Shown in pieces: positions 1-13,364 of a stretch of 13,364 nucleotides of DNA. The DNA comes from Deltaproteobacteria bacterium. GTDB lineage: Bacteria > Desulfobacterota > Desulfobacteria > Desulfobacterales > ETH-SRB1. Both the position numbers and the translations under genes were made by a program. Within the stretch, counting starts at the first letter, position 1; each line of letters begins with the position of its first letter. Location: positions 1 to 13,364 of the forward strand of contig DAOURZ010000010.1 of the NCBI GenBank assembly GCA_030627475.1. The letters are read 5' to 3'. The notes beneath the pieces are model-generated. The model was not told where the DNA came from, did no database searches, and worked only from the letters and a program-made list of their open reading frames with translations.

Positions 1-73
1 AACACTGTGCAACAAGGCGGACATAAGCTGTGATGCCTTAGTTGGGCAGTTATTTCGTCCACGTTCCTTAGCC

Positions 74-121
74 ACCGTAGGTGGCGTGAACTTAAATTTT
101 AAGTGCCCGCTACCCTACGGT
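74..121. repeat. Hairpin-forming fragment of a dispersed repeat, upstream of dnaB
   Basis: The 48-nt dyad has outer arms ACCGTAGG (74-81) and CCTACGGT (114-121) and an inner pairing of GAACTTAAA with TTTTAAGTGC. Just before it, GGGCAGTTATTTCGTCCACG followed by TTCCTTAG (about 45-70) resembles the end of the copy at the right edge of the window read on the other strand. The segment AAATTTTAAG...CCTACGGTTAA also matches the copy near 11680-11716. It looks like a degenerate member of an intergenic repeat family. A role as a transcript terminator for the unseen upstream gene is possible. Confidence 0.5.
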
Positions 122-150
122 TAATCTCATAATTGAGTTTTTAAATTTCT
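122..150 (+). terminator. Possible weak terminator before dnaB
   Basis: CTCA-TAAT-TGAG followed by TTTTTAAATTT forms a very short stem followed by a U-rich run. It could end transcription of the gene to the left of the window. The stem is only 4 to 5 bp, so this is weak evidence. Confidence 0.2.
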
Positions 151-183
151 GAAGAATTCAAGTTTATATTTCATCTAAAACCA

Positions 184-1548
184 ATGGCCAATAGGCAGAT
201 TCAAAACAAACAAGACCCCTCTCTTTATAAAATTCCCCCTCAAAATATTGAGGCCGAGGAATCTTTACTCAGCGGAATCCTTATAGATAACAACACATTG
301 ATTGATATCGTTGATATTGTTTCACCAGAAGATTTCTATAGATCGGCTCATCAAAAAATATTTTCCGGTATTATTGAACTTTTTTCAAAGAACGAACCTG
401 TTGATTTTGTAACTCTTACCAACTCTCTCAAGGAAAGGGGACATTTAGAGGAGATTGGAGGAGCAACATATCTGGCCACGCTTGTTGATACCGTACCGCT
501 TGCTGTAAATTCAAAACATTATGCTAAAATTGTTCATGATAAGGCATCGTTAAGGCAACTTATAGAAAAAGCAAATGAAATCGCCAAAGAATGCTTTGAA
601 GACAAGGGAAATATTGATGAAATAATAGATTTTGCTGAAAGTTCAATTTTTGAAATTTCAAAAAATAAGCATAAACAAGCATTCTATCCTATAAGTGCAA
701 TGATTGATGGGAATATTGAGACACTTGAAGAAAGACAGGGCAACAAGAGCCTGGTAAGCGGTGTTCCAACAGGGTTTACCAGACTTGATAGTCTTACATC
801 CGGCCTGCAGAAAGCAGAACTTATCATTCTTGCTGCACGCCCAAGTATGGGAAAAACAGCCTTGGCCCTTAATATTGCCAGGAACGTCGCAATTGATGCA
901 AATGTGCCTGTAGCCATATTTTCCCTTGAAATGTCAAAAGAACAACTATCAATGCGTTTGCTTTGTTCTGAAGCGAGGATTGATTCATCTCGTTTAAGAG
1001 GAGGTTTTTTCAGTATGGAAGACTGGCGCAAATTAACAGATGCTGCCGGAGTTCTATCTGATACTTCTATTTTTATTGACGATACCCCCGATATATCAGC
1101 GCTGGAAATACGAGCAAAGGCACGTAGATTAAAAATGGAAAAAAATATAGGCCTTGTCGTTATTGATTACCTTCAGCTTATGAAAGGCCGTATGTCTGCT
1201 GAACGTCGAGATCTTGAAATCTCCGAAATATCAAGATCTCTGAAAGCTTTGGCCAAAGAGCTTGATATTCCGGTAATGGCTTTATCTCAGCTCAACAGAA
1301 TGCTTGAGCAACGAAACGACAAGCAGCCAAGACTATCAGACTTGAGAGAATCCGGAGCTCTTGAACAGGATGCAGATGTAGTTACTTTTATATACAGAGA
1401 CGAAATATATAACAACGATGCAAACAATCCCAAAAAAGGTATAGCGGATATTCTGATTAGAAAAAATAGAAATGGCCCCACAGGCGAGCTGACATTAACG
1501 TTCCTGGATAGCTATACACGTTTTGAAAATATTGCATTTGAAAGATAG
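184..1548 (+). CDS. dnaB: Replicative DNA helicase DnaB
   Basis: This is the hexameric 5'-3' helicase that unwinds DNA at the replication fork and recruits primase. The 454 residues are normal for the family. An N-terminal DnaB domain (about 15-118) is followed by a linker and the RecA-like motor. The motor has Walker A ARPSMGKT (218-225), Walker B VVIDY (325-329), the RDLEISEISRSLKALAKEL stretch, SQLNR (368-372) and LSDLRESGALEQDADVV (384-400). The C-terminal KNRNGPTG (427-434) is typical of the family. No intein or insertion interrupts it. The ATG at 184 has no strong Shine-Dalgarno sequence, but it gives the expected N terminus. In many bacteria dnaB follows rpsF-rpsR-rplI; whether it does here is outside the window. 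It converges with the dnaA-glcD pair, with about 130 bp between the stop codons and no clear terminator there. Confidence 0.97.
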   Translation: MANRQIQNKQDPSLYKIPPQNIEAEESLLSGILIDNNTLIDIVDIVSPEDFYRSAHQKIFSGIIELFSKNEPVDFVTLTNSLKERGHLEEIGGATYLATLVDTVPLAVNSKHYAKIVHDKASLRQLIEKANEIAKECFEDKGNIDEIIDFAESSIFEISKNKHKQAFYPISAMIDGNIETLEERQGNKSLVSGVPTGFTRLDSLTSGLQKAELIILAARPSMGKTALALNIARNVAIDANVPVAIFSLEMSKEQLSMRLLCSEARIDSSRLRGGFFSMEDWRKLTDAAGVLSDTSIFIDDTPDISALEIRAKARRLKMEKNIGLVVIDYLQLMKGRMSAERRDLEISEISRSLKALAKELDIPVMALSQLNRMLEQRNDKQPRLSDLRESGALEQDADVVTFIYRDEIYNNDANNPKKGIADILIRKNRNGPTGELTLTFLDSYTRFENIAFER

Positions 1549-1676
1549 AATATAGCTATTCACCAACTTAGAAACGGGGACAAAATAATTTATATGAAAA
1601 AAAAAGCAAACTATCCTCAATATCGTGTACCCTGATTTTTAAAATCGAAGTAAATCAACAGAGTCATAAATCTGGA

Positions 1677-3074
1677 TCAAAGGGGAAAAATTTTGCCGGG
1701 ATTTAATATACCGTTGGGATCAAAAATATTTTTTATCTTTTTCATAAGTCCGAGTTCTACGGCACCTATCTCTTTTTGAATATAGGGTAACTTGGCTATA
1801 CCAATACCATGTTCTCCTGAAATGGTTCCGCCCAGTTTGAGTGTATATCCAAACAGCGCTTCAACGGCGTGTTCTGCCTTTTTAAGATCTTCTTTATTAT
1901 TTTTATCAAGCATTATATTAAAATGAATATTTCCGTCTCCGGCATGGCCGAAACTTACCATTACAAGTCCGGTTTTTTTTCTTAATTCATCTATTTTTTT
2001 TACAATATCAGGTATCCTGTTTCTCGGTACCACAATATCTTCATTTATCTTATCCCTGCCATATCTAAACAAAGCCGGCGAAATCGCCTTTCGAGCTTTC
2101 CAGAGTCTGTCAGCATCTTCTTTATTGCCGGCTTTTTCCACTTTCGCAGCCCCATAGGAAATACAAAGTTCTTCTATCTGATTTATCGCAATCTCAACTT
2201 CTTTCTTTTTTCCATCAACATCAATTAAAAGCAATGCATCAGAATTAACAGGTAGTCCCATCTTGAGATACTCTTCAACACATCTAATTGAAGCATTGTC
2301 CATATATTCTATTGTTCGCGGTATTATGCCATATTGAATAATCGCTGAAACCGCCTTTGCAGCGGTTTCCATATTATTAAAAATAGCGGTCATAGTACTG
2401 ACTCTCTCCGGGAGTGGTAAAAGTCTGAGAGTTATACGCGTAATTACTCCCAGCGTCCCTTCTGAGCCAACAAGAAGCCTGGTCAGATCATAACCTACCA
2501 CCCCTTTGGCTGTACGTACTCCGGTATTTATAATTTCTCCGGTTGGAAGGACAGCTTCTATCCCAAGCACGTAATCACGTGTAACACCATATTTAACTGC
2601 ACGTGGGCCGCCGGCACATTCTGCCAGATTGCCGCCCAGAGTGCAAAATTCAGAACTTGAGGGATCCGGGGGATAAAAAAGGTTTTCCTTTTCAACAGCT
2701 TTATGAAAACGGCCGGTCACAACACCCGACTCAACGCTGGCAATAAGGTTTTCCTTATCTATTTTTAGAATACGATTAAATCCGGTCATAACAAGAATAA
2801 TCCCTCCTTTTACAGCAAGAGATCCTCCTGTCATTCCTGAACCGGCCCCTCTTGGAATAACAAAAAAACTATCTTTATTGGCAAGCTTCAGAATAGAAGA
2901 TACTTGCAGGACATTTTGAGGAAACAGGACTGCATCAGGCAGATAAGTCTGTGCAGTCGCATCATATGCATAGCATGCAAGATCTTCTTTATCTCTGCTG
3001 AAATTGGACTTGCCTGCTATATCTTTAAGCTTTTTGAAAGTTTTATCACTAATTGTCATTGACAAGCTATCCAT
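1677..3074 (-). CDS. FAD-linked oxidase, GlcD/D-lactate dehydrogenase family
   Basis: This is a flavoprotein that oxidises a 2-hydroxy acid such as glycolate or D-lactate; the substrate is not determined. The FAD-binding (PCMH/VAO) domain covers roughly residues 45-220, with PRGAGSGMTGGS (74-85), PPDPSS (135-140), GGNLAECAGGPRAVKYG (147-163) and LLVGSEGTLG (200-209). The C-terminal FAD-oxidase domain has NEDIVVPR (344-351), GHAGDGNIHFN (376-386, probable metal and substrate histidines), GGTISGEHGIG (415-425) and FDPNGILNPGKIF (451-463). The 465 residues are normal for stand-alone GlcD-type subunits. No GlcE or GlcF partner and no Fe-S domain is present in the window, so the electron acceptor is unknown (electron-transfer flavoprotein or an unlinked GlcF-like protein). 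The ATG is 5 bp after the dnaA stop, and its ribosome site GAGGA overlaps that stop, which implies co-transcription and translational coupling with dnaA. Confidence 0.9.
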   Translation of the reverse strand: MDSLSMTISDKTFKKLKDIAGKSNFSRDKEDLACYAYDATAQTYLPDAVLFPQNVLQVSSILKLANKDSFFVIPRGAGSGMTGGSLAVKGGIILVMTGFNRILKIDKENLIASVESGVVTGRFHKAVEKENLFYPPDPSSSEFCTLGGNLAECAGGPRAVKYGVTRDYVLGIEAVLPTGEIINTGVRTAKGVVGYDLTRLLVGSEGTLGVITRITLRLLPLPERVSTMTAIFNNMETAAKAVSAIIQYGIIPRTIEYMDNASIRCVEEYLKMGLPVNSDALLLIDVDGKKKEVEIAINQIEELCISYGAAKVEKAGNKEDADRLWKARKAISPALFRYGRDKINEDIVVPRNRIPDIVKKIDELRKKTGLVMVSFGHAGDGNIHFNIMLDKNNKEDLKKAEHAVEALFGYTLKLGGTISGEHGIGIAKLPYIQKEIGAVELGLMKKIKNIFDPNGILNPGKIFPL

Positions 3075-3079
3075 GTTCC

Positions 3080-4429
3080 TCAGAATTCTCCGGATTCAAG
3101 TTTTTTGCTGAAAATTTCCATCTGTTTCTGCAAAGCTCTTTTTTCTTTTAACCCTCGCTCAACGATACCAATGGAATGAAGGGCTGTAGCATGATATCTG
3201 TTGAAACTTTTACCAATTGTTTGAAGAGGCAAATCTGTATATCTCCTTGAAAGGTAAATTGCTATTTGTCTTGGACGAACAAAGTTTTGTTTTCGGGAAC
3301 TTGAATTAATATCTTTTATAGAAATATTGAAATGCTTGCACACAAGTTTCTTGATAACATCTATTGTAATATTTTTACGTTGCCTGATTATATTCTGGGC
3401 TACACTTTTCGCAAGATCAAGGTCAATCGGCACTTCAAGAATGGATGACTTGGCTATAACCCCCAGAAGTCCGCTCTCAAGCTGCCTGACATCCGCTGTC
3501 AGTTCACTTGCGAGATAATCAATTACTTCATCATGTAATTTATGTCCTTTATTTTTCGATTTTTTCTTTAATATTTTGACTCTTGTCCTGAAACCGGGAG
3601 GGTCAATATTTGAAATAAGACCGTATGAAAACCGCGATACTAATTTTTCATTAAGTTTAGGAATATCGGAAGGGAGATAACAACTTGAAAAAATAATTTT
3701 CTTATCTGCTTCAAAAAGATAATCAAGAATTAAAGCCAGCTCAATCTGTGTACGCTCCTTTCCACTTAAAGAATGCACATCTTCAAGAAGCAATACATCA
3801 CATCCATTCCTGTATTTTCCCTTGAATTCATTAATTGAACCATTCCTAAAAGCATTAACCATCTCATTGGTAAACTCTTCTGCGGTTATATAATATACAT
3901 GTTCTGCTGGATATCGAGATATTATATGGTGACCCACGGCCTGCGAAAGATGACTTTTTCCCATTCCCATTTTTGATAATAAAAATAAGGAATTTTGCTG
4001 CGAATTCTTTTTGGAAGCAAGGTTAACTGCCGCTAAATAAGCAAAGTCATTATTGTTGCCGACAACGAACTGATCAAAAGTAAAATCTTTTCTTAATAAT
4101 CGGCCATTATACGGACGCAAATTAATCCCTGGCAGAGGGAGCTGGATATTATTATCCTTTTTAAAACATGAGTTCTCTTTTTTACTGGTTTTGCAGAAAA
4201 TCTCAATGCTAAGCTTGTATGCTTTACCGGAAGTTTTTTTTATTTCCGTTTCTATAATTGAACCATAGTGGTCAAGAATATGCTTTTTTGAAAAAGTATT
4301 TGCACACGAGAATACAATACAATTCCCCTTACATTCTATAAAGGCTACCGGTTCAATCCACATTTTATAACTATGGACAGGAATCTGTTTTTTAATCGAC
4401 CGTTTTACTTCTTCCCATATCTGTTTCAT
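3080..4429 (-). CDS. dnaA: Chromosomal replication initiator DnaA (divergent signature)
   Basis: This is an AAA+ ATPase that binds and melts the origin and loads DnaB. The 449 residues are normal. Domain I (1-80) has the typical WEEVKRSIKKQI and YKMWIEP pattern, followed by a short domain II linker (about 80-112). AAA+ domain III has Walker A SKMGMGKS (152-159), Walker B DVLLLED (211-217, Glu in place of the usual first Asp), a sensor region IIFSSCYLPSDIPKL and RLxSRF-type LVSRFSYGL, and sensor 2 LTADVRQLESGL (310-321). Domain IV holds RKQNFVRPRQIAIYLSRRYT (379-398). The DNA-contact signature reads FNRYHATALH (409-418), where most bacteria have GGRDHTTVLH. The ATG gives a complete domain I, although no good Shine-Dalgarno sequence precedes it. 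Its downstream neighbour is a GlcD-type oxidase, not dnaN. Upstream lies a 1.08-kb AT-rich region containing a 200-bp inverted repeat. I judge it the lineage's main DnaA because all four domains are intact. Confidence 0.93.
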   Translation of the reverse strand: MKQIWEEVKRSIKKQIPVHSYKMWIEPVAFIECKGNCIVFSCANTFSKKHILDHYGSIIETEIKKTSGKAYKLSIEIFCKTSKKENSCFKKDNNIQLPLPGINLRPYNGRLLRKDFTFDQFVVGNNNDFAYLAAVNLASKKNSQQNSLFLLSKMGMGKSHLSQAVGHHIISRYPAEHVYYITAEEFTNEMVNAFRNGSINEFKGKYRNGCDVLLLEDVHSLSGKERTQIELALILDYLFEADKKIIFSSCYLPSDIPKLNEKLVSRFSYGLISNIDPPGFRTRVKILKKKSKNKGHKLHDEVIDYLASELTADVRQLESGLLGVIAKSSILEVPIDLDLAKSVAQNIIRQRKNITIDVIKKLVCKHFNISIKDINSSSRKQNFVRPRQIAIYLSRRYTDLPLQTIGKSFNRYHATALHSIGIVERGLKEKRALQKQMEIFSKKLESGEF

Positions 4430-4600
4430 AGGGCATTACAATCCATATTCCAAAAAATAAGGTTAATATTAAAAGTTTTTCAAACGACTTTGCAAACCAA
4501 GAAAAATCAAGCTGTTTGGAAAAAATATTCAAATATAAATTTGAACCTGAATTGAACAAATTTTGGTTTGATCTGCACATCTCTTCCCCAAATCGCTCAA

Positions 4601-4800
4601 ATTAGGAACGTAAACGAAATAATTTCATCAACTATGCATCATAGATTCGGACCGCCTTTGTTTGATCTAAAATCTCAAAAGTATCAAAATAGCTCGCTAT
4701 TCCTTCAACTTTTGTGCCTATTTTAAATCGGGCAGATCAAACAAATCCAACCAAAATCTATGCGCCTACTTGATGAAGTTAATTCGTTCACGTTCCTAAT
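4601..4800. repeat. 200-bp imperfect inverted repeat (MITE-like or structured element)
   Basis: The left end ATTAGGAACG (4601-4610) is the exact reverse complement of the right end CGTTCCTAAT (4791-4800). Extended by eye, the outer arms 4601-4631 and 4770-4800 pair at 28 of 31 positions. Further inward, GTTTGATCT (4660-4668) pairs with AGATCAAAC (4734-4742), and CATAGATT pairs with AATCTATG. The centre has AATAGC-TC-GCTATT (4688-4701). Almost the whole element can therefore fold into one long hairpin. No coding capacity and no clear target-site duplication were seen. It could be a miniature inverted-repeat element or a structured regulatory element upstream of dnaA. Confidence 0.75.
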
Positions 4801-5204
4801 GTTTAAAAAAGATTTTTTGAAACGTATAAGAAGAATCGAAAAATTAAATAAGGATTAGGGATCCAAAAATTCTTGTGAAATTTAATGGCTTGATTAAGCT
4901 ATCAGCACCTTTCTGTCAAACCTGAATAATAATGTTTTACGCCTGTTTCGTAAAAAGTTATTAACAATTTATAGTTATCTGTTTTTATTGATCAATATTT
5001 TAAACATATAAACAACTACTTCTAAATACAAACATTTTTGCAAAGAGATTTTTTTGCAAACATTTTATGGAGATCCATCATTATCAGCACATTATTTACA
5101 ATAATGAACTATTCAAAAAGCTCGCCAATCCTTTCATTATCTTTAATTTTCAAAAAAAAATGCAAGCATCTTTGTAATAAAACATTTTTTAAATAACATC
5201 ATAT

Positions 5205-5226
5205 AGTTACCCCGTTCACGTTCCTG
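5205..5226. repeat. Solo end of the dispersed repeat
   Basis: CCGTTCACGTTCCTGACC shares the core CGTTCACGTTCCT with the right arm of the 200-bp inverted repeat (near 4785-4797) and resembles TTCGTCCACGTTCCTTAG near 54-70. It is probably a remnant or an end of the same repeat family. No partner end was found nearby. Confidence 0.4.
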
Positions 5227-5313
5227 ACCGTTATCGAATTGTATACCGGGAGCTGAAGGCTTCAGTTTAGCCATCTGAATTAATAAATTCGAAATCTCAG
5301 ATTTATTTAGAGA

Positions 5314-5341
5314 TTGTTTGATATTATTCAGAAGTTATGAT
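5314..5341 (+). promoter_or_regulatory. Candidate sigma70-type promoter for the cold-shock gene
   Basis: TTGTTT (5314-5319) and TATGAT (5336-5341) are spaced by 16 bp. They would give a leader of roughly 160 nt before the ATG at 5510, a long leader of the kind known for cspA mRNAs. The -35 match is poor, so the assignment is tentative. Confidence 0.25.
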
Positions 5342-5509
5342 ATTATTAAAATAGTTCGGTGGGAAAAAGCTTAATGATCTTGATTTGTTTTTTAAAAATA
5401 CGTTTTGAATGGCGTACCGGTTTCGTTCTTAAGGGAAAATATATTTGTCAAAGTGGCAACAACCTGAAGTCTGGAACCATTAGATTTTTTTTGAAAGGAG
5501 ATTGTCACT

Positions 5510-5710
5510 ATGGCGAATGGAATTGTGAAGTGGTTTAATGACCAAAAAGGTTTTGGATTTATTGAACAAGAAGATGGTCCTGATGTATTTGTTCATCATT
5601 CAGGAATCAATTCATCTGGGTTTAAAACCCTTAATGAAGGTGATCGGGTTACATTTGATATTGAGCAAGGGCAAAAAGGCCCTGCTGCTGTAAATGTAAC
5701 TGTAGCTTAG
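5510..5710 (+). CDS. Cold-shock domain protein, CspA family
   Basis: This is a 66-residue single-domain cold-shock protein that binds single-stranded RNA or DNA and acts as an RNA chaperone in the cytoplasm. RNP1 is KGFGFI (13-18) and RNP2 is VFVHH (26-30), preceded by the characteristic GIVKWFND start. The protein ends in the usual AVNVTV strand. A strong AAAGGAG ribosome site lies 8 to 9 bp before the ATG and fixes the start. It is monocistronic, with its own long AT-rich leader and a strong terminator just after the stop. The family name is certain. Whether it is cold-induced or constitutive cannot be told from the sequence. Confidence 0.96.
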
Positions 5711-5731
5711 CCTTAAGCTCAATTAGTTAAT

Positions 5732-5774
5732 AAAAAAAGGCACTCCGTCAAATTAGCGCAGAGTGCCTTTTTTT
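5732..5774. terminator. Bidirectional rho-independent terminator between csp and the TrmO-like gene
   Basis: A GC-containing stem GGCACTC (5739-5745) pairs with GAGTGCC (5761-5767). It is flanked by seven A on the left and seven T on the right, so the extended arms are AAAAAAAGGCACTC and GAGTGCCTTTTTTT. The symmetry lets it terminate rightward csp transcripts and leftward transcripts of the facing gene. Confidence 0.9.
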
Positions 5775-5839
5775 GTTGGCAGATATAGTGTAATCCTAAA
5801 AAAATGTTCGGGGTAGAAAACGATCAGGGGTTAATTAAA

Positions 5840-6277
5840 TCACAGCGTAGTCTTGCCTTTGAAACTCGGACAACTGTGTTTTTCTTCAACATGAGGCTTG
5901 ATATCCAAAACAGGTGTCCCATCACGCATATCAATTCCTGTTACGTAAACGAAGTTATCTTTTCTCCCGACAACTTCCAAAACCGACATGCCAACAGGAT
6001 TCGGCCGGATTGGCGAACAAGTGCTGAAGACGCCTAATTGCTCTCCACGGTGTGGAGGTGTCTGGCTGAGAAACTGTGAAATAAACTCAGGGCTTTGATG
6101 AAAATAAAAAATCACTACAATACGTTGGCCGACTCTGATATCTTTAAGCCCTTCTAAATATTTTTTATCTATAACCAATGCCCCTTCTTCATCCGAAACA
6201 CTCCAATGTCGGGGAATTTTTTCAGCATCAGTCTGAACAAAACCTATAGGTTCCATTTCGACGCTCATATTATTCAT
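5840..6277 (-). CDS. TsaA/TrmO-domain protein, probable tRNA t6A37 methyltransferase
   Basis: TrmO-family enzymes methylate N6-threonylcarbamoyladenosine at position 37 of tRNA using S-adenosylmethionine bound in a beta-barrel fold. The 145-residue protein is essentially one TsaA domain. It opens with MEPIGFVQTD (8-17), then has LGVFSTCSPIRPNPVGMS (81-98) and GIDMRDGTPVLDIKPH (114-129), the two family hallmarks. It is short compared with the enterobacterial TrmO of about 235 residues, but short versions are common. The usual Arg of the GVFATRSP motif is Cys here (residue 87), and the usual acidic end after KPY is replaced by HVEEKHSCPSFKG. Methyl transfer to another tRNA or small molecule therefore cannot be excluded. 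The start codon is ATG; a second in-frame ATG follows at codon 4, and the ribosome site is weak. It appears to be transcribed alone. Confidence 0.8.
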   Translation of the reverse strand: MNNMSVEMEPIGFVQTDAEKIPRHWSVSDEEGALVIDKKYLEGLKDIRVGQRIVVIFYFHQSPEFISQFLSQTPPHRGEQLGVFSTCSPIRPNPVGMSVLEVVGRKDNFVYVTGIDMRDGTPVLDIKPHVEEKHSCPSFKGKTTL

Positions 6278-6390
6278 TTTAGCTCACAAGTACAGCGTAA
6301 AAAACCCTGTTTTTGTTTTGACATTTTTTGAGGGTACTTTAGAAACCTGGTATCAAGTATCGCGCTGCTGGAAATGTTTTGAGATTAGAT

Positions 6391-6843
6391 TCAAGGGGAA
6401 AGGGTTCGGTCTAAGAGTTTGATGATTGTCGGTTTATATGCATCTTTCCTGGATAGCTCATTTCCTTTTGTTTTAACAAAGAAAAATGAAGTAAATAGAA
6501 ATAAAAAACCAACAATTATTGACAATATTGTCTGATCATAATTCAATATTGGTGCAAGTTTTTCGCCGATAACCACGCCTATAATCAGAAATAAAACTGG
6601 AATCATATACACAAGAAAAGTTGCTTTTAATAATGAAGACGTTTCAAAATTGATAACAACCTTGTCATTGACCTTTGCCTTTGCAGCATTTATTGCTTCA
6701 ATCTCCACATCATCATTGGACGTCCCTCCTCCGGTATCACAAAAACCTTTTGCAGAGCATGATTCACAGGCAGCGCATTTAGTGCATTTAACCCATGCTG
6801 TAGATGAATAAACCTTTGTTACAATGCCTTCTGCAGTTGCCAA
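6391..6843 (-). CDS. RseC/MucC-family positive regulator of sigmaE or SoxR-reducing protein
   Basis: This is a 150-residue inner-membrane protein of the RseC/MucC family. The N-terminal cytoplasmic part holds a Cys cluster, VKCTKCAACESCSAKGFC (18-35, Cys 20, 23, 26, 29, 35). A beta-rich stretch (46-67) comes next, then two membrane segments (about 72-93 and 104-123). In enterobacteria RseC works with the Rnf-like Rsx complex to reduce SoxR, and in many anaerobes an rseC-like gene accompanies rnf. Here it lies 224 bp downstream of rnfA on the same strand, so a role in assembling or modulating Rnf is a reasonable inference. The start is TTG, preceded by AGGGA at suitable spacing, with no in-frame ATG nearby upstream. 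The Cys cluster suggests Fe-S or redox sensing, but this is unproven. Confidence 0.82.
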   Translation of the reverse strand: MATAEGIVTKVYSSTAWVKCTKCAACESCSAKGFCDTGGGTSNDDVEIEAINAAKAKVNDKVVINFETSSLLKATFLVYMIPVLFLIIGVVIGEKLAPILNYDQTILSIIVGFLFLFTSFFFVKTKGNELSRKDAYKPTIIKLLDRTLSP

Positions 6844-7013
6844 AATACTATTCCCTGATGCCTTAGTGCCTTTATGGCTTGAACTATTATAAAAAAGTTT
6901 TGTGTTATAAATAAATTATATTTGCTGCCGGATTATCCTGGATTGGGCTTTAAAATTTTAGTGCGGCATATATGTGTGAAAAATTTTAAATGGTATTCTA
7001 TTTTTAGATATGT

Positions 7014-7053
7014 CCAGGGGAGCATTGCAATATATTTACTTATGCGCCCCTGG
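7014..7053 (-). promoter_or_regulatory. Stem-loop just after rnfA
   Basis: CCAGGGGAGCAT (7014-7025) pairs with ATGCGCCCCTGG (7042-7053) at 11 of 12 positions, with a 16-nt AT-rich loop. It lies 15 bp beyond the rnfA stop on the leftward transcript. No U run follows it, so it is more likely an mRNA 3'-end stabiliser or processing structure than a classical terminator. Confidence 0.5.
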
Positions 7054-7067
7054 TAGTTCCAATTTTT

Positions 7068-7642
7068 TTAAACCATTCCTTTGAATGCAAAAAATGCAAG
7101 GGAAAGCATTCCCGCAGTAACAAGCCCGATAGCAGTATCTTCAAGCGGTTTTGGGACCCTGGCAAGGAGAATACGTTCACGTACGCCGGCAAAAAGAACA
7201 AGAGCAAGACCAAAACCAGCGGCATAGCTAAATGATGTAACAAGGCTCTGCATAAATGTATATTCTTCATTAATATTTATTAGACAAACACCCATTACAG
7301 CGCAGTTTGTTGTAATCAGCGGCAAAAGATACCAAGCCCTTTATACAACGCCGGAATGCTCTTTCTTAAGAACATCTCAACAAACTGTACAAGAGAGGCT
7401 ATTACAAGAATAAAAGCAATAGTTCTAAGATATTCAAGATTGAACGGTTTTAAAACATATGCCTCAATAAGCCATGTTATTGCTCCGGCCATAACCAGAA
7501 CAAAAATTACAGCCATACCCATCCCGATTGCTGTTTCCATTTTCTTCGATGTCCCCATAAAAGGACAGCAACCCAGATACTGGGCAAGCAGAATGTTGTT
7601 AACAAGGACACAGCTTACAGCGAGGAGTATATATTCGCCCAT
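7068..7642 (-). CDS. rnfA: Rnf complex subunit RnfA, reading frame broken by a one-base deletion
   Basis: RnfA is an integral membrane subunit (six helices) that pairs with RnfE and contributes cysteines to the intramembrane [2Fe-2S] centre. The first piece (7316-7642, 108 codons) starts with ATG after GGAG and contains AQYLGCCPFMGTSKK (20-34). It runs to ALYKGLGIF and then hits a false CR-stop. The second piece (from 7325 down to 7068) continues with LPLITTNCAVMGV and ends LAFFAFKGMV. Restoring one T in the T run at 7324-7327 gives one frame of 191 residues, the normal RnfA length, with both Cys regions (25/26 and 114). All other cluster members are intact, so a sequencing or assembly slip is plausible; a real lesion would disable the complex. 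It begins 11 bp after rnfE. The protein identity is certain; its functional state is not. Confidence 0.9.
7323..7330 (-). other. Frameshift site inside rnfA
   Basis: On the coding strand the sequence reads GGTATCTTTTGCCGCTGATT. With four T the frame gives G-I-F-C-R-stop. With five T it gives G-I-F-L-P-L-I, matching the conserved RnfA segment. No convincing -1 slippery heptamer is present, so programmed frameshifting is unlikely. Confidence 0.85.
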
Positions 7643-7653
7643 TTAATTTTCTC

Positions 7654-8247
7654 CTATTTATTTCCTGCAAGGTTCATCATAGAGAGCATAAGACCAAGAC
7701 ACACAAAAGCGCCCGGGGCCTCGACCATGAATGTAAAAGGCTGAAAAGATTGCCCGAATACAGACATTCCGAAAAAAGTACCGTTTCCAAATACTTCACG
7801 TAAAGCTCCTATGGAAACCAGGGAAAGGGTAAACCCGACACCTATTCCAAATCCATCCGCTATTGAAGGAATAACACCGTTTTTGTATGCAAATGCCTCG
7901 GCGCGTCCAAGTAGAATACAGTTAACAACAATAAGCGGTATGAATATCCCAAGCTTTAAAAAAAGCGCATATGTATATGCCTGCATAAGAAGTTCCACCA
8001 CGATAACAAATGTAGCGATAATAACAATAAAACAGGCTATTCTTACTTTTGAAGGAATTATGTTCCGCAGTAATGAAACAAGTATATTGGAACATACAAG
8101 AACAAAGATTACAGCCACCCCCATTCCCAGTCCATTTTCTACCGATTTAGTAACAGCAAGTGTGGGACAGAGGCCAAGTACAAGCCTGAATGGTGGTATC
8201 TCATCCCACAAACCTTTAACGAATTCCTGAGTGATAGACTTAGCCAT
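7654..8247 (-). CDS. rnfE: Rnf complex subunit RnfE
   Basis: This is an integral membrane subunit of the Rnf ion-translocating complex, the paralogue and partner of RnfA. The 197 residues form about six membrane helices. Conserved landmarks are FRLVLGLCPTLAVTKS (Cys27) and FIPLIVVNCILLGRAEAFA (Cys110). These are the two Cys positions that, together with the RnfA pair, hold the membrane [2Fe-2S] cluster in the related Nqr enzyme. GALREVFGNGTFFG (147-160) is also characteristic. The ATG follows GGGAG at 6 bp. It starts 10 bp after the rnfG stop and ends 11 bp before rnfA, which fits a single operon. No unusual residues were noticed. Confidence 0.95.
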   Translation of the reverse strand: MAKSITQEFVKGLWDEIPPFRLVLGLCPTLAVTKSVENGLGMGVAVIFVLVCSNILVSLLRNIIPSKVRIACFIVIIATFVIVVELLMQAYTYALFLKLGIFIPLIVVNCILLGRAEAFAYKNGVIPSIADGFGIGVGFTLSLVSIGALREVFGNGTFFGMSVFGQSFQPFTFMVEAPGAFVCLGLMLSMMNLAGNK

Positions 8248-8257
8248 CTTTTACTCC

Positions 8258-8848
8258 CTAGTTAAATTCCTTTATTTTTTCAGCAATCTGAGGTTTTAAA
8301 CGTTTATAAATTTCTGCGGCATTTGATACGCCGCCGCAAACACCTCGTGAGGTAACAGTGGCTCCAGATATGGAGTCAATCTCTCCGCCGTCCGGTTTGA
8401 CCTTGCAGGGTTCAACCGCGGCTAATCCCTTAAATTGATTTGAAAACCTAGGATCTGTTTTTGCCTTGGAACCTATGCCGGGTGTTTCACTGTGGGTGGT
8501 TACACCTATGTCGATAATATTGTCGTTATCTAAACTTACACCAACCATAAGGCCAATATTACCGCCAAAGCCTTTCCCGGTTCCTTCAAAAGCAACGGCA
8601 TTGGCCTTTCCGTCAAATATACCTACAAAGAAGCTTCTTTCAATGTCTCCGTCCTTGATTTTAAAGCGGTCAACAATAGGATCATTGGAACATCCCTCAA
8701 GAATACTCCTTATTGCAGGCCCTTTAACAAACAGCAACTGCTGGGTTTCGATTTTATCCTTGGTTCCTCCGCGAATTGCAGCAAGAAGGCCTCCGGAGAA
8801 AGAGCTAAGCACAGTCAAAACCACGATCATTTTTATTATTTCACGCAT
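8258..8848 (-). CDS. rnfG: Rnf complex subunit RnfG, covalent FMN protein
   Basis: RnfG is a membrane-anchored subunit with an outward-facing FMN-binding domain. The FMN is attached by ApbE through a phosphoester to Thr in the motif S(T)GAT. The 196-residue protein has one N-terminal membrane segment (about 7-25) and an FMN-binding domain with TTHSETPGIGSKA (117-129). The flavinylation motif is ISGATVTSRGV (160-170, Thr164). The site is intact, so flavinylation is expected, but no apbE gene is seen in this window. The ATG lies 4 bp after the rnfD stop, with AAGGTAG inside the end of rnfD as the likely ribosome site, indicating translational coupling. In a cytochrome-linked Rnf this subunit is the probable link to the extracytoplasmic cytochrome (inference). 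Confidence 0.95.
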   Translation of the reverse strand: MREIIKMIVVLTVLSSFSGGLLAAIRGGTKDKIETQQLLFVKGPAIRSILEGCSNDPIVDRFKIKDGDIERSFFVGIFDGKANAVAFEGTGKGFGGNIGLMVGVSLDNDNIIDIGVTTHSETPGIGSKAKTDPRFSNQFKGLAAVEPCKVKPDGGEIDSISGATVTSRGVCGGVSNAAEIYKRLKPQIAEKIKEFN

Positions 8849-8852
8849 TTTT

Positions 8853-9812
8853 TTAAGCTACCTTTCCAATCGCTTTTGGTTTAATCTTATCTAAAAGCGG
8901 ATTTACAAGGTTCATAATCAGGAGCGCAAAGATCACGCCATCAACATAAACGCCGATATTTCTGATGAGTACGGTCATAAGTCCTGCACCGGCGCCGTAA
9001 ATAAGCATGGGAATAAAATTGACCGGTGAAGAGGAATCTTCAGTTGCAAGAAAAAAGGCGCCAATCAAAGTATAACCTGTGAAAAGATGAATAACCGGAC
9101 CCGCATAACGCGCGGAATCGGTCATATTGAATATAAGAGCAGTAAGAAAAACACCGAATAGAAAGGAAAAAGCTATTTCCCACCTGATGATTCCTCTGAT
9201 AATGAGATATATCCCTCCAACAATAAGGCCGATACCAAAGGTTGCACCTATTCCACCTGACTGTTTGCCCATTAAAAGATCACCCATGCTGAATGAATCA
9301 ACAGCAGATACACCAAAATGTTTCAGAGCGGCAAGAGGGTAAACCATAGCAAAATCGAAATCGTAATTTATAAGCGCTTCGTTAAAATCAAATATATCTT
9401 TCCATGATATCATAAGAATAGCCATGGCAACCACAACAGGATTAAAGGCATTGCCACCGATTCCACCATAAATCTGTTTTCCAATAATAATAGCAACAAA
9501 TGTTCCAATTATTACAAGCCACCATGGCGCTGTTGCCGGCAAAAGCATACCGAATAGAAGACCGATAATAGCAGCATTGCCATCTCCAATGGTAATTGGA
9601 CGTTTCGCTATACGACAAAACGCTAATTCCCAGATAATGGCCGAGGATATGGCAAGTGATATAACACCGACAGCCGACATGCCGTAATAAATGATGCCAA
9701 GTAGTATTGCCGGGAAAGCCGCAAAAGCCATATTATAATTTCGTGTAGATATTTTGCTTCCATCGTGCCAGAAAGGGGCATGTGAAACTATGAATTTGTT
9801 ATTATCAGCCAT
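8853..9812 (-). CDS. rnfD: Rnf complex subunit RnfD, lacking the usual flavinylation Thr
   Basis: This is an NqrB/RnfD-family integral membrane subunit of 319 residues with eight to ten helices. The reading frame is open further upstream, but the start is ATG at 9812 (MADNNKFIVSHAP). GGAGG lies 7 bp before it, and the family normally starts with a segment like IVSxSPHxH. It overlaps the rnfC stop by 8 bp (ATGGCTGA). Landmarks are PITIGDGNAAIIGLLFGMLLP (72-92 region), PWWLVIIGTFVAIIIGKQIYGG (97-117 region), NAFNPV (121-126), and TGYTLIGAFFLATE (245-258). Where other RnfD proteins read D-G-x-S-x-A-T-P-L, with Thr carrying covalent FMN, this one reads F-A-M-V-Y-P-L-A-A-L-K (154-164), so Tyr158 replaces the Thr. 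It either lacks that flavin or binds it non-covalently. Identification as RnfD is firm. Confidence 0.94.
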   Translation of the reverse strand: MADNNKFIVSHAPFWHDGSKISTRNYNMAFAAFPAILLGIIYYGMSAVGVISLAISSAIIWELAFCRIAKRPITIGDGNAAIIGLLFGMLLPATAPWWLVIIGTFVAIIIGKQIYGGIGGNAFNPVVVAMAILMISWKDIFDFNEALINYDFDFAMVYPLAALKHFGVSAVDSFSMGDLLMGKQSGGIGATFGIGLIVGGIYLIIRGIIRWEIAFSFLFGVFLTALIFNMTDSARYAGPVIHLFTGYTLIGAFFLATEDSSSPVNFIPMLIYGAGAGLMTVLIRNIGVYVDGVIFALLIMNLVNPLLDKIKPKAIGKVA

Positions 9813-11091
9813 TAGTTGCCTCCGCTGTATTTGCCATGCCAAGCTCATATTTTGCCGACCTGATATATTGGAATATCGGCATTCCGGATACACAAACATA
9901 ACTGCAAAGACCGCATTCAATACATGAATGCAAATCGTATTGATCTGCAGCTTCTTCATATTGTCCGGATTCAAGAAACCGGACAAGCAGGTTAATCTGA
10001 ATATTTGCAGGGCATACCCTTATGCAGTCGCCACAGTTTGTGCAGGGGTAATCTGAAATAACAGGTATATCTTCTTTATCCTGTACAATAATAGCATCTG
10101 TGTCAGGCTGAACCGGATGATCCTCTGAATAGACAGAAGAGCCCGTCATTGGGCCACCGAATATTATCCTGTCATTTTCGTTTAAAGTAATATTAAAAGC
10201 CTTGAATATTTCGCTGGCCGGTGTTCCGAGTTTGGCAGATACAAGTGATTTAGAGCCGTCTTTCTTAACAAGAGTCAAAATTTTTGTTACCGGTATCTGA
10301 CCGGTGTTAAAAGCATTTCCGATAGATGCAACCGCTTCAGCACTGATAAAACAAACCCCGATATCTTCAGAATTTTTTCCTGCCGGCACTTCCTTGCCCA
10401 GAATGTCTTTCATGATAAGATGCGGGAGTGCGGATGGATATGTATCATTAACCTGTTTTACTTTTTCACCGGTCGCGGAGAGTTCATGCATCTGGCCTTG
10501 TGAAGCGACCATTATAATATCATTAACTCCGGTTATTGTTTTTAGAACACTTATTCCATTTTTTATTGCATCAATATCGGACTTAACAACATACTGATTT
10601 GTTGTTATCAATAAATCGCTGTCGGCACAACAAACAACAATTGTATTTACAGGTTTGCTTTTGTCGGAAAACAACTTGACCGGAGAATTGCCAGGAACAA
10701 ATGCAAGATAGTTTTTGACGGTTTCAATAGTGGCATCCTTTGATCCGCCTGCGGTTGCCTTGAACTCATCATCTATTTCTTCATCATCAGCTACTTCAAT
10801 TGCGATGGCAGTATAAGATCGACCAAAGTCACCTGTATAAGAAGATATTGACGATACTTGTCCCGTAACACTTGAAATAACATATTCATCACTTTCCTTG
10901 TACAGTAAAAGCTTCTGTCCGGTTTTAACGGTCGCCTTTTTCTTAAGTAACAGGTTCTTTTTGTCAAATGGACAGTTTGATAAAATAGTAATCTCTTTTG
11001 GAGTTGGGATTTGCTTAAGGGAAGGCGTATCTTCAATAGATCCGTATTCAAGTCGTGGTTTTAACAAACCGATAAAAGATCTTTTTATCAT
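9805..11091 (-). CDS. rnfC: Rnf complex subunit RnfC with degenerate FMN/NADH site
   Basis: RnfC is normally the peripheral cytoplasmic subunit that binds FMN and NAD(H) and carries two [4Fe-4S] clusters. The clusters are intact: C350-x2-C-x2-C-x3-C (PCTNCGDCIRVCPANI) and C390-x2-C-x2-C-x3-C (CIECGLCSYVCVSG). Other family landmarks remain: LGTPASEI (288-295), FGGPMTGSS (311-319) and GKEVPAGKNSEDIGV (232-246). However, the N-terminal GGxHPPE is absent. The glycine-rich GLGGAGFPT loop is replaced by YLAFVPGNSPVKL (128-140). NAxECEPY is replaced by CCADSDLL (154-161), IEDNK by VASQGQ (195-200), and YPxGGEKQL by YPSALPHLI (218-226). With 428 residues it has no long C-terminal extension. The ATG follows AAAGG at 8 to 9 bp. 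It is 126 bp downstream of the cytochrome gene and overlaps rnfD by 8 bp. The likely meaning is loss of NAD(H) use (inference). Confidence 0.9.
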   Translation of the reverse strand: MIKRSFIGLLKPRLEYGSIEDTPSLKQIPTPKEITILSNCPFDKKNLLLKKKATVKTGQKLLLYKESDEYVISSVTGQVSSISSYTGDFGRSYTAIAIEVADDEEIDDEFKATAGGSKDATIETVKNYLAFVPGNSPVKLFSDKSKPVNTIVVCCADSDLLITTNQYVVKSDIDAIKNGISVLKTITGVNDIIMVASQGQMHELSATGEKVKQVNDTYPSALPHLIMKDILGKEVPAGKNSEDIGVCFISAEAVASIGNAFNTGQIPVTKILTLVKKDGSKSLVSAKLGTPASEIFKAFNITLNENDRIIFGGPMTGSSVYSEDHPVQPDTDAIIVQDKEDIPVISDYPCTNCGDCIRVCPANIQINLLVRFLESGQYEEAADQYDLHSCIECGLCSYVCVSGMPIFQYIRSAKYELGMANTAEATNG

Positions 11092-11217
11092 AGTTCCAAC
11101 CTTTCTTAGCTCTACTCGCTTGCTTCACCTGAATGCTATCAATGGCGGTCAGGTTTGTTAAACAAAACAAAACGAAGCCAAGCGTTTTTTTATTCAATTA
11201 ACAAATAAACTATTTGC
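11092..11217 (-). promoter_or_regulatory. Leader between the cytochrome gene and rnfC with small dyads
   Basis: This 126-bp gap holds an AT dyad CAAATA-GTT-TATTTG just after the cytochrome stop. It also holds ACCTGA (11127-11132) pairing with TCAGGT (11149-11154), and the near-palindrome TTTGTTAAACAAA. These could form weak hairpins that set the ratio of cytochrome to Rnf mRNA. No promoter is convincing. Confidence 0.3.
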
Positions 11218-11598
11218 TTACATTACATGGCACAATTCACATTTTTCAGGACCTGCTCCGCTTTCCTTATGACAATCAATACATTGTGCATGGAAAGCAT
11301 CAGCTCTGCCCGGTACATCTTCGTCCTGGCTCTCAGGTTCATGACATTCTCCGCAGGCTTGGGGATTTGTCTCACCTTCTTCAAGATTATGATGGCAGTC
11401 ACTGCATGAGATGCCATAACCCGATTCTACAGTATGTGTCTTGTGATCAAATAAAATCTTTCCGGCAACACATTTAAACATTAACCTGACCGGTTCTTCC
11501 TGGGCCTTAGCAGGAAAAGCTGCATAACTCAGAACACCCACAACCAACAAAATAATAGCCAGGCCGTAAGCTATCTGAAGTTCTTTGTTCGAGATCAT
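11218..11598 (-). CDS. Tetraheme cytochrome c3-type protein, exported
   Basis: This is a small class III multiheme c-type cytochrome of 126 residues. An N-terminal membrane segment (about 8-28) ends in PAKAQ, consistent with signal peptidase cleavage after Ala32 or with an uncleaved anchor, so the heme domain is outside the cytoplasmic membrane. Four CxxCH sites are present: CSDCH (65-69), CGECH (82-86), CIDCH (106-110) and CELCH (120-124). The FDHKTH segment (50-55), the extra His70 in CHH, and His103 in AFHAQC supply four likely distal ligands, the bis-His pattern of cytochrome c3. The mature domain is about 93 residues. The ATG follows AAAGGA at 7 bp. Lying just before rnfC, it is the likely partner that exchanges electrons with the Rnf complex on the periplasmic side, as multiheme cytochromes do in other Rnf clusters. 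That function is inferred from context. Confidence 0.92.
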   Translation of the reverse strand: MISNKELQIAYGLAIILLVVGVLSYAAFPAKAQEEPVRLMFKCVAGKILFDHKTHTVESGYGISCSDCHHNLEEGETNPQACGECHEPESQDEDVPGRADAFHAQCIDCHKESGAGPEKCELCHVM

Positions 11599-11900
11599 AA
11601 TTCTATCCTTTCAAAAGCGTTATCTTTGAGACCTTTGCAAAACACCCCTTTTTGCTCAATCACTGCGTCAGTCTCAAATTTTAAGCCCCAAAATACTCAA
11701 TGTATTCCTACGGTTAAACCTGATTTAAAATTTAGTCGCCTTCCTTAGTACTCGAACAAAATTGAACCTTTTTCAAGGGTCGATCTTTGTAAAAGTGGGT
11801 GTAAGAGTAAAATTAAAAATATATACCATAATGTAAAAATACTATCAAGTAAAAATCATGTCATCAGAGTGTGTAGTTTTATGTCCGGACTGCCATTGCT
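11599..11900. repeat. 302-bp gap between uspA and the cytochrome gene containing a dispersed repeat
   Basis: No gene is visible. A repeat copy covers about 11630-11800. Its core (11663-11718, starting CTGCGTCAG and ending CGGTTAAA) matches the right-edge copy at 13282-13337, about 50 of 56 bases by eye. It contains a dyad, CTCAAATTTTAAG against TTTAAAATTTAG. Short direct repeats, CCTTTGCAAAA (near 11632) and TCTTTGTAAAA (near 11784), flank it. The perfect 8-bp palindrome GTCCGGAC (11883-11890) lies just past the uspA stop. The insertion separates uspA from the cytochrome gene and could carry a promoter or terminator, but neither is clear. Confidence 0.7.
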
Positions 11901-12371
11901 TTATTCAACAACCCAAACAGTACAATCTTTCATATTCTGTACAATCTTATTGGATACACTTCCCAATACAAAGGCAGTGGTGGCGGACAATCCTCTACGT
12001 CCCACTACAACTGTGTCATAATTTTCTTTTCCTGCCTCTGCTATGATATCCCTGGCAATCCCGACAACCTTGTTTTGCATTTTTACTTCAACATTATCGT
12101 CAGAAAATCCTGCATTAATTAAAATGGTACGGCATTCCTCTATTCTTGATTCAGTCTTCTTTTTTTCTTCATCAACCATCCATCTAAGTTCAATAACCTT
12201 TTCTGAAAAGAACGGCTGTTTGAGGTCTTTTTCCATCTTTTCCAGATTTAAAGACATTGTCGGCAATACGCTAAACAGAGTTATATTGACTGTGGGATTA
12301 ACAGTAGAAGCTACATAGTTGACAACTTTTATTGCATACTCTGAATCATCTATGGTTATAAGCATCTTCAT
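11901..12371 (-). CDS. Universal stress protein, UspA family (ATP-binding type)
   Basis: This is a single Usp domain of 156 residues, cytoplasmic, with an alpha/beta fold. It starts with KMLITIDDSEYA (2-13), the usual first strand with an Asp. The ATP-binding signature G-x2-G-x9-G-S/T is present as GRRGLSATTAFVLGSVS (124-140). The family includes ATP-binding stress proteins of varied function. A charged helical insert (about 47-80, rich in Lys and Glu) may be longer than in minimal Usp proteins. It lies 21 bp after rnfB on the same strand with a GGAG site about 10 bp before the ATG, so it is probably co-transcribed with rnfB. Its specific job is unknown. Genes of this family often accompany energy-metabolism clusters, and it could sense adenylate state (inference). 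Confidence 0.88.
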   Translation of the reverse strand: MKMLITIDDSEYAIKVVNYVASTVNPTVNITLFSVLPTMSLNLEKMEKDLKQPFFSEKVIELRWMVDEEKKKTESRIEECRTILINAGFSDDNVEVKMQNKVVGIARDIIAEAGKENYDTVVVGRRGLSATTAFVLGSVSNKIVQNMKDCTVWVVE

Positions 12372-12392
12372 GGTTGTTTGTCTCCATATTTG

Positions 12393-13193
12393 TTATGTGA
12401 CTACCAATCTCTGAATAATTCCGGTAGGACATTTTTCAAAACACTCGCCGCACCCTGTGCATTTGTTACCGTCAACTATTGCCAGGAATTTATCAACTAT
12501 TATAGCCTTTTCCGGGCAAGCTTTTTTGCATTTTCCACAGCCGAGACAACCGATGTTGCATATTGACTTAACAATTTTTCCACCGTCATGTGAACTGCAA
12601 AGAGTTGCAACTTTTTGTGATTCTTTTATCAATCTGGGGATATGTCGAGGACAGATATCTACACATGTGCCGCAACCGGTGCAGAGTATTTCATTAACTA
12701 CAGGCAAGCCATCTTCTCCCATTGTTAAGGCTCCGAACGGACAATTTGTAACACAGGTACCAAGCCCAAGACAACCATAAGCACAGCTTTTGTCTCCCCC
12801 TGAAAGCAGAACATCCGCGCGGCAGTCTGACATACCTTTATAATTGCCTTTTCGTTCCGCAACGCTATGAGTGCCCTTGCAAAAAATATTCACTATATCT
12901 CTTTCGGTCGCGTCAGCGGATACTCCAAGGACAGCAGCAACTGCAGCTGTAACATCATCGCCACCGGCCTTACAGGCATTTGGCGGAGTCTCGCCTGCCA
13001 CCATAGCAACAGCGCAATCACTGCAACCGGCATAGCCGCATCCTCCACAGTTTGCGCCGGGAAGGCACTCATCTACCGCAACAACTTTTGGATCAACGTA
13101 CACATAAAAAACTTTTGACGCAATTCCCAGTATAACACTCAGTACCAAGCCAAGGCAGCCCATTGCTATCATCGCGTTTAATAAGGGTCCCAT
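12393..13193 (-). CDS. rnfB: Rnf complex subunit RnfB, polyferredoxin
   Basis: RnfB is the ferredoxin-accepting entry point of the complex. It has one N-terminal membrane helix (about residues 5-28) and a cytoplasmic Fe-S region. A four-cysteine Fe-S domain, DECLPGANCGGCGYAGC, is followed by four ferredoxin-type [4Fe-4S] sites: CAYGCLGLGTCVTNC, CTGCGTCVDIC, CLGCGKCKKAC and CTGCGECFEKC, each with a further Cys. The preferred start is ATG at 13193 (MGPLLNAMIAMG, 266 residues). AGGTG-type GGAGGT (13204-13209 on the plus strand as ACCTCC) lies about 10 bp before it. The upstream GTG at 13205 would overlap that ribosome site. The gene is first in the cluster, separated from rnfCDGEA by uspA and a cytochrome gene, whereas rnfB is last in the common rnfCDGEAB order. 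The repeat at the right edge lies in its upstream region. Confidence 0.95.
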   Translation of the reverse strand: MGPLLNAMIAMGCLGLVLSVILGIASKVFYVYVDPKVVAVDECLPGANCGGCGYAGCSDCAVAMVAGETPPNACKAGGDDVTAAVAAVLGVSADATERDIVNIFCKGTHSVAERKGNYKGMSDCRADVLLSGGDKSCAYGCLGLGTCVTNCPFGALTMGEDGLPVVNEILCTGCGTCVDICPRHIPRLIKESQKVATLCSSHDGGKIVKSICNIGCLGCGKCKKACPEKAIIVDKFLAIVDGNKCTGCGECFEKCPTGIIQRLVVT

Positions 13194-13239
13194 GAAATTT
13201 GTCACCTCCAGTTAGCTATAACCGATTACTTAAACCTAA

Positions 13240-13364
13240 ATTACTTAGTGCCTGAACGAAAACTGCCAATTTTTCCAATTTCTGCGTCAGGCGCAAATTT
13301 TAATCCTCAAAATACCCAATGTATTCCTGCGGTTAAAATTTGCGTCTTCCTTGAACTTGAAAAA
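13240..13364. repeat. Dispersed repeat copy upstream of rnfB (cut by window edge)
   Basis: The core at 13282-13337 matches 11663-11718. An internal inverted pair, GGCGCAAATTTTAATCC (13290-13306) and GGTTAAAATTTGCGTC (13331-13346), can form a hairpin. On the opposite strand the left end reads GGCAGTTTTCGTTCAGGCAC then TAAG, resembling the copy near 45-70. No promoter could be separated from the repeat. Confidence 0.7.

Follow-up and report, generated by a model that had tools for sequence, protein, structure and literature searches.

To which partner does an Rnf complex hand its electrons when the subunit expected to bind flavin mononucleotide (FMN) and NADH has lost the motifs for both? The question is raised by a stretch of 13,364 nucleotides from a Deltaproteobacteria bacterium of the ETH-SRB1 lineage (GenBank assembly GCA_030627475.1, contig DAOURZ010000010.1, positions 1 to 13,364 of the forward strand), hereafter the window, in which all six RnfABCDGE subunit families are co-encoded, rnfA being judged from two frames and from relatives, and rnfB lying beyond a cytochrome gene. 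An initial annotation had proposed that this Rnf passes ferredoxin electrons to cytochrome c or quinone instead of NAD+. Judging from sequence, we consider it somewhat probable that the complex is an Rnf-type ion pump without an NAD branch, that is, an ion-coupled ferredoxin:cytochrome c3 oxidoreductase.

The first line of evidence comes from rnfC (9805..11091, as initially placed, and like every feature described here on the minus strand), which encodes 428 amino acids and scores 180.6 bits with TIGR01945, vs a cut-off of 245.95. Under strict patterns, all 41 canonical RnfC rows carry six of six FMN/NADH motifs and the window protein none: alignment with these 41 confirmed the five losses announced earlier (GGxHPPE, GLGGAGFPT, NAxECEPY, IEDNK and YPxGGEKQL) and added a sixth, NVxT. 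The canonical xG[IVL]HP site reads -GLLK, the GxGGAxFPT site YLAFVPGNS (residues 128-136; 10684..10710), the NxxECEPY site CCADSDLL (residues 154-161; 10609..10632), the IExNK site ASQGQ (residues 196-200; 10492..10506), the YPQGxEKQ site YPSALPHL (residues 218-225; 10417..10440), and the NVxT site SAEA (residues 250-253; 10333..10344). As had also been claimed, GGPM (residues 312-315; 10147..10158) and two CxxCxxCxxxC clusters are retained, in the alignment and by motif reading: the first 4Fe-4S motif spans C350-C360 (10012..10044), the second C390-C400 (9892..9924), and all eight cysteines (350, 353, 356, 360, 390, 393, 396 and 400) are there. Since only 3 of 25 canonical-invariant columns are kept within the motifs vs 32 of 56 elsewhere, motif loss exceeds general divergence; nor is it decay, because RnfC has a ratio of non-synonymous to synonymous substitution rates (dN/dS) of 0.17, and its FMN domain one of 0.21, across the window and 10 loci of its family.

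Could the whole operon nevertheless be a relic under weak selection? The gene rnfA (7068..7642) is split into two overlapping frames in the window, and this break would be read as decay; its T run at 7316-7325 is, on the other hand, one T shorter than in the four relatives checked (L108, L083, L086 and L080), and the break is probably a sequencing or assembly error. With dN/dS values of 0.14-0.18 in RnfC, RnfB, CytC3, RnfG and RnfE, a relic seems highly improbable.

Motif loss is not confined to the window gene. Sorted by the six motifs, 172 RnfC rows fall into 41 canonical ones with 6/6 and 131 with 0 or 1 of 6, with none between. The motif-lost rows comprise the window and 12 loci of its family, 108 others, six of a separate small-RnfB group (D-type) and four of a Desulfovibrio type, 130 of them being distinct, as L111 and L167 share one RnfC and were both counted; L001, L034-L047 and L048, which duplicate other loci, and RnfC frames below 380 amino acids were left out of the motif counts. 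The canonical rows, namely 30 loci with the best TIGR01945 score in their order, 10 found via RnfG and one, in L155, next to a relative of the rnfC described here, were chosen largely by top score, so that their uniformity is partly selected, and intermediates may exist because sampling was uneven, the other rows having been taken for their similarity to RnfC or RnfG of the window. The eight cysteines of the clusters are complete in 131/131 motif-lost and 40/41 canonical rows. Among the listed proteins nearest a Desulfovibrio-type RnfC, 120/120 have none of the six motifs in place and 116/120 have the two C..C..C...C motifs; the few that are named belong to Desulfovibrio, Bilophila or Desulfovibrionaceae. 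Within the family of the window, 14 of 17 genomes encode a window-type RnfC (87-100% identity), G261 has a D-type RnfC instead (30% identity), and no RnfC was found in G085 and G279 at E 1e-20. RnfC is also motif-less in the D-type group (L196, L198, L202, L203, L206 and L207), where RnfB is small; the three D-type RnfCs tested score 344-352 bits with TIGR01945, above its cut-off, which therefore fails to separate RnfCs with an NAD site from others. L155 contains rnfC in both forms, motif-less and canonical, in divergent operons, and L149 (motif-less) and L016 (canonical) derive from contigs of equal length (41,686). Is the canonical RnfC then encoded elsewhere in the same organism? In the source genome (2.07 Mb, 483 contigs, 90% complete), a search with PF01512 (51K-type) retrieved this RnfC alone; the second, canonical RnfC for which a check had been suggested was not found.

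The second line of evidence comes from RnfD (8853..9812; its ATG at 9810-9812 is overlapped by the rnfC stop). In Clostridium tetanomorphum, RnfD binds FMN covalently through Thr153, and Arg130 and Glu185 are close to the flavin ring (PMC9588780). In the alignment with this protein, the window RnfD has Tyr instead of Thr153 (codon 9339..9341), Met instead of Arg130 and Ala instead of Glu185. All three residues are kept in 37/37 canonical rows; among 126 motif-lost rows, 118 keep none, six keep one, one keeps two and one all three, these counts excluding frames below 280 amino acids and L155, which holds both types. Only one PF03116 protein is encoded in the source genome, in which a second RnfD/NqrB was not found.

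This loss bears on the possibility that the complex is a conventional ferredoxin:NAD+ oxidoreductase in which different residues form the FMN/NADH pocket. The RnfC/NuoF fold is retained, the window RnfC scores 33.4 bits with Complex1_51K, slightly above the cut-off of 31.2, and an acidic pair (D157/D159) is kept at the NxxECEPY site, each residue being conserved in 110 of 121 motif-lost rows. Yet all six motifs are lost, the FMN site of RnfD has gone too, and 14 of the 25 canonical-invariant motif columns vary above the protein average in the motif-lost group (entropy >1.94, up to 3.28), so that we regard a rebuilt pocket as improbable.

What has become of the remaining redox sites? RnfG (8258..8848), a DVU2794-type protein (NF045876, 250.8 bits vs a cut-off of 205), retains its FMN motif SGAT (residues 161-164; Thr164 codon at 8357..8359), and the FMN threonine is kept in 122/125 motif-lost loci. 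RnfE (7654..8247) retains C27 and C110, and the two cysteines are kept in 118/118 motif-lost loci. The FMN-attaching enzyme ApbE is encoded in the source genome; it lies about 600 bases from the sole other tetraheme-cytochrome match of that genome (G000:C272:2596-4248). Nqr and Rnf have been pictured as an outward and a return path in a study of flavinylation (PMC8238504), the available part of which contains no statement of RnfD FMN-site loss. In these terms, the outward path looks intact, as the RnfG threonine and the RnfE cysteines are kept, and the return path looks broken at two flavins, as the RnfD and RnfC sites are lost.

The third line of evidence is the cytochrome gene beside rnfC. 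The tetraheme c3 gene reported directly upstream is indeed there, 126 nucleotides away (11218..11598): it encodes a class III cytochrome c of 126 amino acids with four CxxCH motifs (PF02085, 46.6 bits) and, by eye, a hydrophobic N-terminus resembling a signal sequence; with the TmcA profile NF045722 it scores 61.2 bits, below the cut-off of 114. A multi-heme gene (at least three CxxCH, at most 1.5 kb upstream of rnfC, same strand) accompanies 109 of 123 motif-lost loci vs 0 of 39 canonical ones, loci with less than 900 bases upstream being excluded as not assessable. By group, it is found in 12/12 loci of the window family, 4/4 of the Desulfovibrio type, 4/6 of the D-type and 89/101 others, and the upstream genes contain 3 to 10 heme motifs. 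A stricter overlap limit gave 103/123, and was widened because stop-to-stop frames overlap.

The cytochrome gene and the loss of the RnfD threonine go together. Where a multi-heme gene precedes a motif-lost rnfC, the threonine is absent in 105/105 operons (84 have Tyr, 3 Ser and 18 other residues); where none does, an aligned threonine is found in 6/14 (Fisher p 8.7e-7, which is not based on independent events because the rows are related). In three cytochrome-less loci (L194, L198 and L213), it sits in TPL, as in the canonical motif.

Do electrons instead still run from RnfD to the two RnfC 4Fe-4S clusters, and on to another cytoplasmic redox protein docked at the old FMN/NAD place, the cytochrome being an extra branch? 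The conserved clusters would then have a function, but the RnfD site that feeds RnfC would have to work without its covalent threonine and the two ring-side residues, and no gene for such a partner was found among the operon genes scanned; we consider this unlikely. Alternatively, RnfC could be structural, like NqrA, and electrons could end in membrane quinone at RnfD, as in Nqr. NqrA of Na+-NQR is, like the window protein, an RnfC-fold subunit without FMN and NAD, but its Fe-S clusters are gone and its companion subunit is NqrF, whereas the window RnfC keeps the cluster cysteines and RnfB is present. NqrB is said to bind FMN covalently, which the window RnfD should not do. RnfD also has no counterpart of the two N-terminal helices that carry the quinone site in NqrB, and NqrA lacks the clusters whose cysteines stay in RnfC (PMC12174285). 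An ending in quinone thus appears very improbable. With RnfB present, the cysteines kept and one PF03116 protein in the genome, the system does not match an Na+-NQR. Compared with the canonical ferredoxin:NAD+ Rnf, it has the two 4Fe-4S cluster motifs and none of the six RnfC motifs.

If electrons do leave through RnfG and the cytochrome, which protein exchanges them on the cytoplasmic side? RnfB (12393..13205) is small and of ferredoxin type (270 amino acids, and 271-277 in frames of the window family), and profile scans found no NAD(P) or flavin adenine dinucleotide module in it; its best match is NF041836 rnfB_Methano (280.6 bits, under the cut-off of 445). Most relatives in which RnfB was seen carry a large one, and the window family carries the small ferredoxin-type one: among the 101 assessable loci of the group of others, RnfB exceeds 600 amino acids in 65, is small in 3, and could be assigned to neither size in 33. 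The large RnfB of Desulfonema magnum (L113), the one tested by domain search, consists of an RnfB front part and a GltD-like module (Pyr_redox_2, Fer4_20); no such RnfB-GltD fusion was found in the source genome or in five relatives.

The two subunits have different histories. In a 36-row tree of RnfC, the window is nested among large-RnfB operons with L116 and L119 as sisters (support 98/91), and an approximately unbiased (AU) test rejects its placement outside the large-RnfB group (p 6e-6). A grouping of window and D-type RnfCs is rejected too (p 6e-58). In a 36-row tree of RnfB, the window groups with D-type small RnfBs (98/96), including one from a genome in its own genus, and a placement with L116 and L119, the sisters of its RnfC, is rejected (p 2e-6). 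A cruder AU test on 88 RnfB rows, in which window and large RnfBs are placed together, gave no rejection (p 0.45); it demands only that some split separate these from the remaining small RnfBs, and in the 88-row tree long branches meet (the Desulfovibrio type with L217/L218). As RnfC and RnfB of the window family come from different branches, the complex looks like a hybrid, and the simplest reading would be that the family ancestor swapped an RnfB of NAD(P)H type for one of ferredoxin type. A truncated large RnfB was rejected, the window protein branching with small RnfBs and the AU test giving the p of 2e-6 mentioned above. An NAD(P) module split from RnfB was also sought: the best GltD-like match in the genome (473 bits), on G000:C218, is part of a 1134-residue open frame and was taken as another enzyme because a domain scan of 490 amino acids further on in the same frame (L219:1-1470) showed molybdopterin-oxidoreductase domains.

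How would such a complex work? The cytoplasmic entry (or exit) point for electrons would be the ferredoxin-type RnfB. The Fe-S cluster of RnfA/RnfE would take them through the membrane to the periplasmic FMN of RnfG, which would exchange them with the tetraheme cytochrome c3 whose gene neighbours rnfC, with no electron return via the RnfD FMN, RnfC and NAD. In the forward direction, ferredoxin would be oxidised and an ion gradient built; in reverse, the gradient would be spent and reduced ferredoxin made from periplasmic electrons, a mode that, to judge from the setting, would suit a bacterium receiving electrons from outside. Concerning the initial proposal, the loss of the NAD route and the link to cytochrome c gain support from the lost RnfD site, the distribution of multi-heme genes, the RnfB without an NAD(P) module, and the genome in which neither a second RnfC nor a second RnfD/NqrB was found; the change of acceptor, together with coupling and direction, is what we infer, whereas the losses in RnfC and RnfD, the kept RnfG threonine and RnfE cysteines, the type of RnfB, the order of the genes and what the genome encodes are read from the sequence. 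More broadly, and tentatively, a group of Rnf complexes among the Desulfobacterota might be open-circuit: the return half (RnfD FMN, RnfC FMN/NAD) would have been lost, and the outward half (RnfB, RnfAE, RnfG) kept and joined to c-type cytochromes. In the Eth-SRB1/Candidatus Desulfaltia family, a ferredoxin-type RnfB would afterwards have been acquired from a different Rnf lineage. The resulting complex would be an ion-coupled oxidoreductase between periplasmic cytochrome and ferredoxin, and for a bacterium living on extracellular electrons it could be a source of electrons at low potential.

Several points weigh against the loss of the NAD branch and the switch to cytochrome c3. The cluster cysteines of RnfC are kept throughout the motif-lost rows, and a dead-end subunit leaves this conservation unexplained; the acidic pair at the ECE site is conserved as well. 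RnfD could bind FMN non-covalently, and the Ser found at the threonine position in 3/105 might still take the flavin. No cytochrome gene precedes rnfC in 14 of the 123 motif-lost loci; 8 of the 14 have a large RnfB (L192, L193, L194, L195, L197, L199, L200 and L201), and in four of these eight a Thr is aligned in RnfD, which may reflect an intermediate form or an alignment effect. In Desulfovibrio alaskensis G20, the decaheme gene dhcA before rnf showed no fitness defect save in one pyruvate experiment, whereas rnf mutants did (PMC4215793). Finally, the source genome is only 90% complete.

The RnfC loss and the change of acceptor are already partly in print. The RnfC of Desulfobacula toluolica Tol2 was described as having lost its FMN/NAD domains and as requiring a different acceptor, and Desulfococcus multivorans has a similar complex (PMC5109826). 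This Tol2-type Rnf (Rnf2 in D. multivorans) shares with the window an RnfC without FMN/NAD domains, but its RnfB of about 700 amino acids has NAD-binding sites, and the window RnfB shows none; the RnfD FMN site and an upstream cytochrome go unmentioned in the available part of that paper. It had also been hypothesised earlier that sulfate reducers with a cytochrome gene in their rnf operon transfer electrons between the pool of cytochrome c and NAD(P)H or ferredoxin in the cytoplasm (PMC4287179). No report was found, in the mainly open-access literature searched, of an RnfD FMN-site loss parallel to that in RnfC, of an association between this loss and the cytochrome gene, or of a hybrid with a small RnfB and no NAD(P) site. 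The initial annotation had also drawn a parallel with Methanosarcina acetivorans, which holds for physiology: there too a multi-heme cytochrome gene, mmcA, stands in the rnf operon, as its first gene, no NAD is used, and RnfG is the proposed electron donor to the cytochrome (PMC4023990, PMC11024163). MmcA is a heptaheme protein related to tetrathionate reductases, and the window cytochrome, a tetraheme class III protein, does not belong to its family. Desulfovibrio-type rnf resembles the window in the lost RnfC motifs and the small RnfB, but has a decaheme gene upstream in 4/4 loci instead of a tetraheme one and Asp in place of the RnfD threonine in 4/4, and its RnfC and RnfB lie on long branches separate from those of the window. 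In favour of a complex without NAD, attempts with D. alaskensis vesicles to demonstrate that oxidation of ferredoxin and reduction of NAD are coupled to a gradient were unsuccessful (PMC4841214). Primers for D. alaskensis matched L159-L162 with 4-6 mismatches at best, so that these loci are not assigned to that strain.

The remaining genes complete the operon, which reads rnfB, universal stress protein gene, cytochrome c, rnfC, rnfD, rnfG, rnfE, rnfA and RseC-family gene. The universal stress protein gene (11901..12371; PF00582) lies between rnfB and the cytochrome gene and adjoins rnfB in 9 of 12 loci of the window family, and the RseC/MucC-family gene (6391..6843; PF04246, 114.6 bits) lies downstream of rnfA. 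The source genome encodes AprA, and CdhC (PF03598) was not found in it, so that no Wood-Ljungdahl origin of the ferredoxin electrons is proposed. Eth-SRB1 and Seep-SRB1a have been assigned to one family (PMC10553843).

What would an Rnf of this kind mean for these bacteria? The Rnf of sulfate reducers has been modelled as a ferredoxin:NAD+ oxidoreductase, both in syntrophic consortia (PMC10553843) and in the fitness work on D. alaskensis (PMC4215793). If the return path is gone, such models need another ferredoxin partner and a different energy yield; and if the proposed mechanism is true, the complex would be a natural Rnf with a single electron crossing, bearing on whether ions are coupled at RnfA/E or at RnfD.

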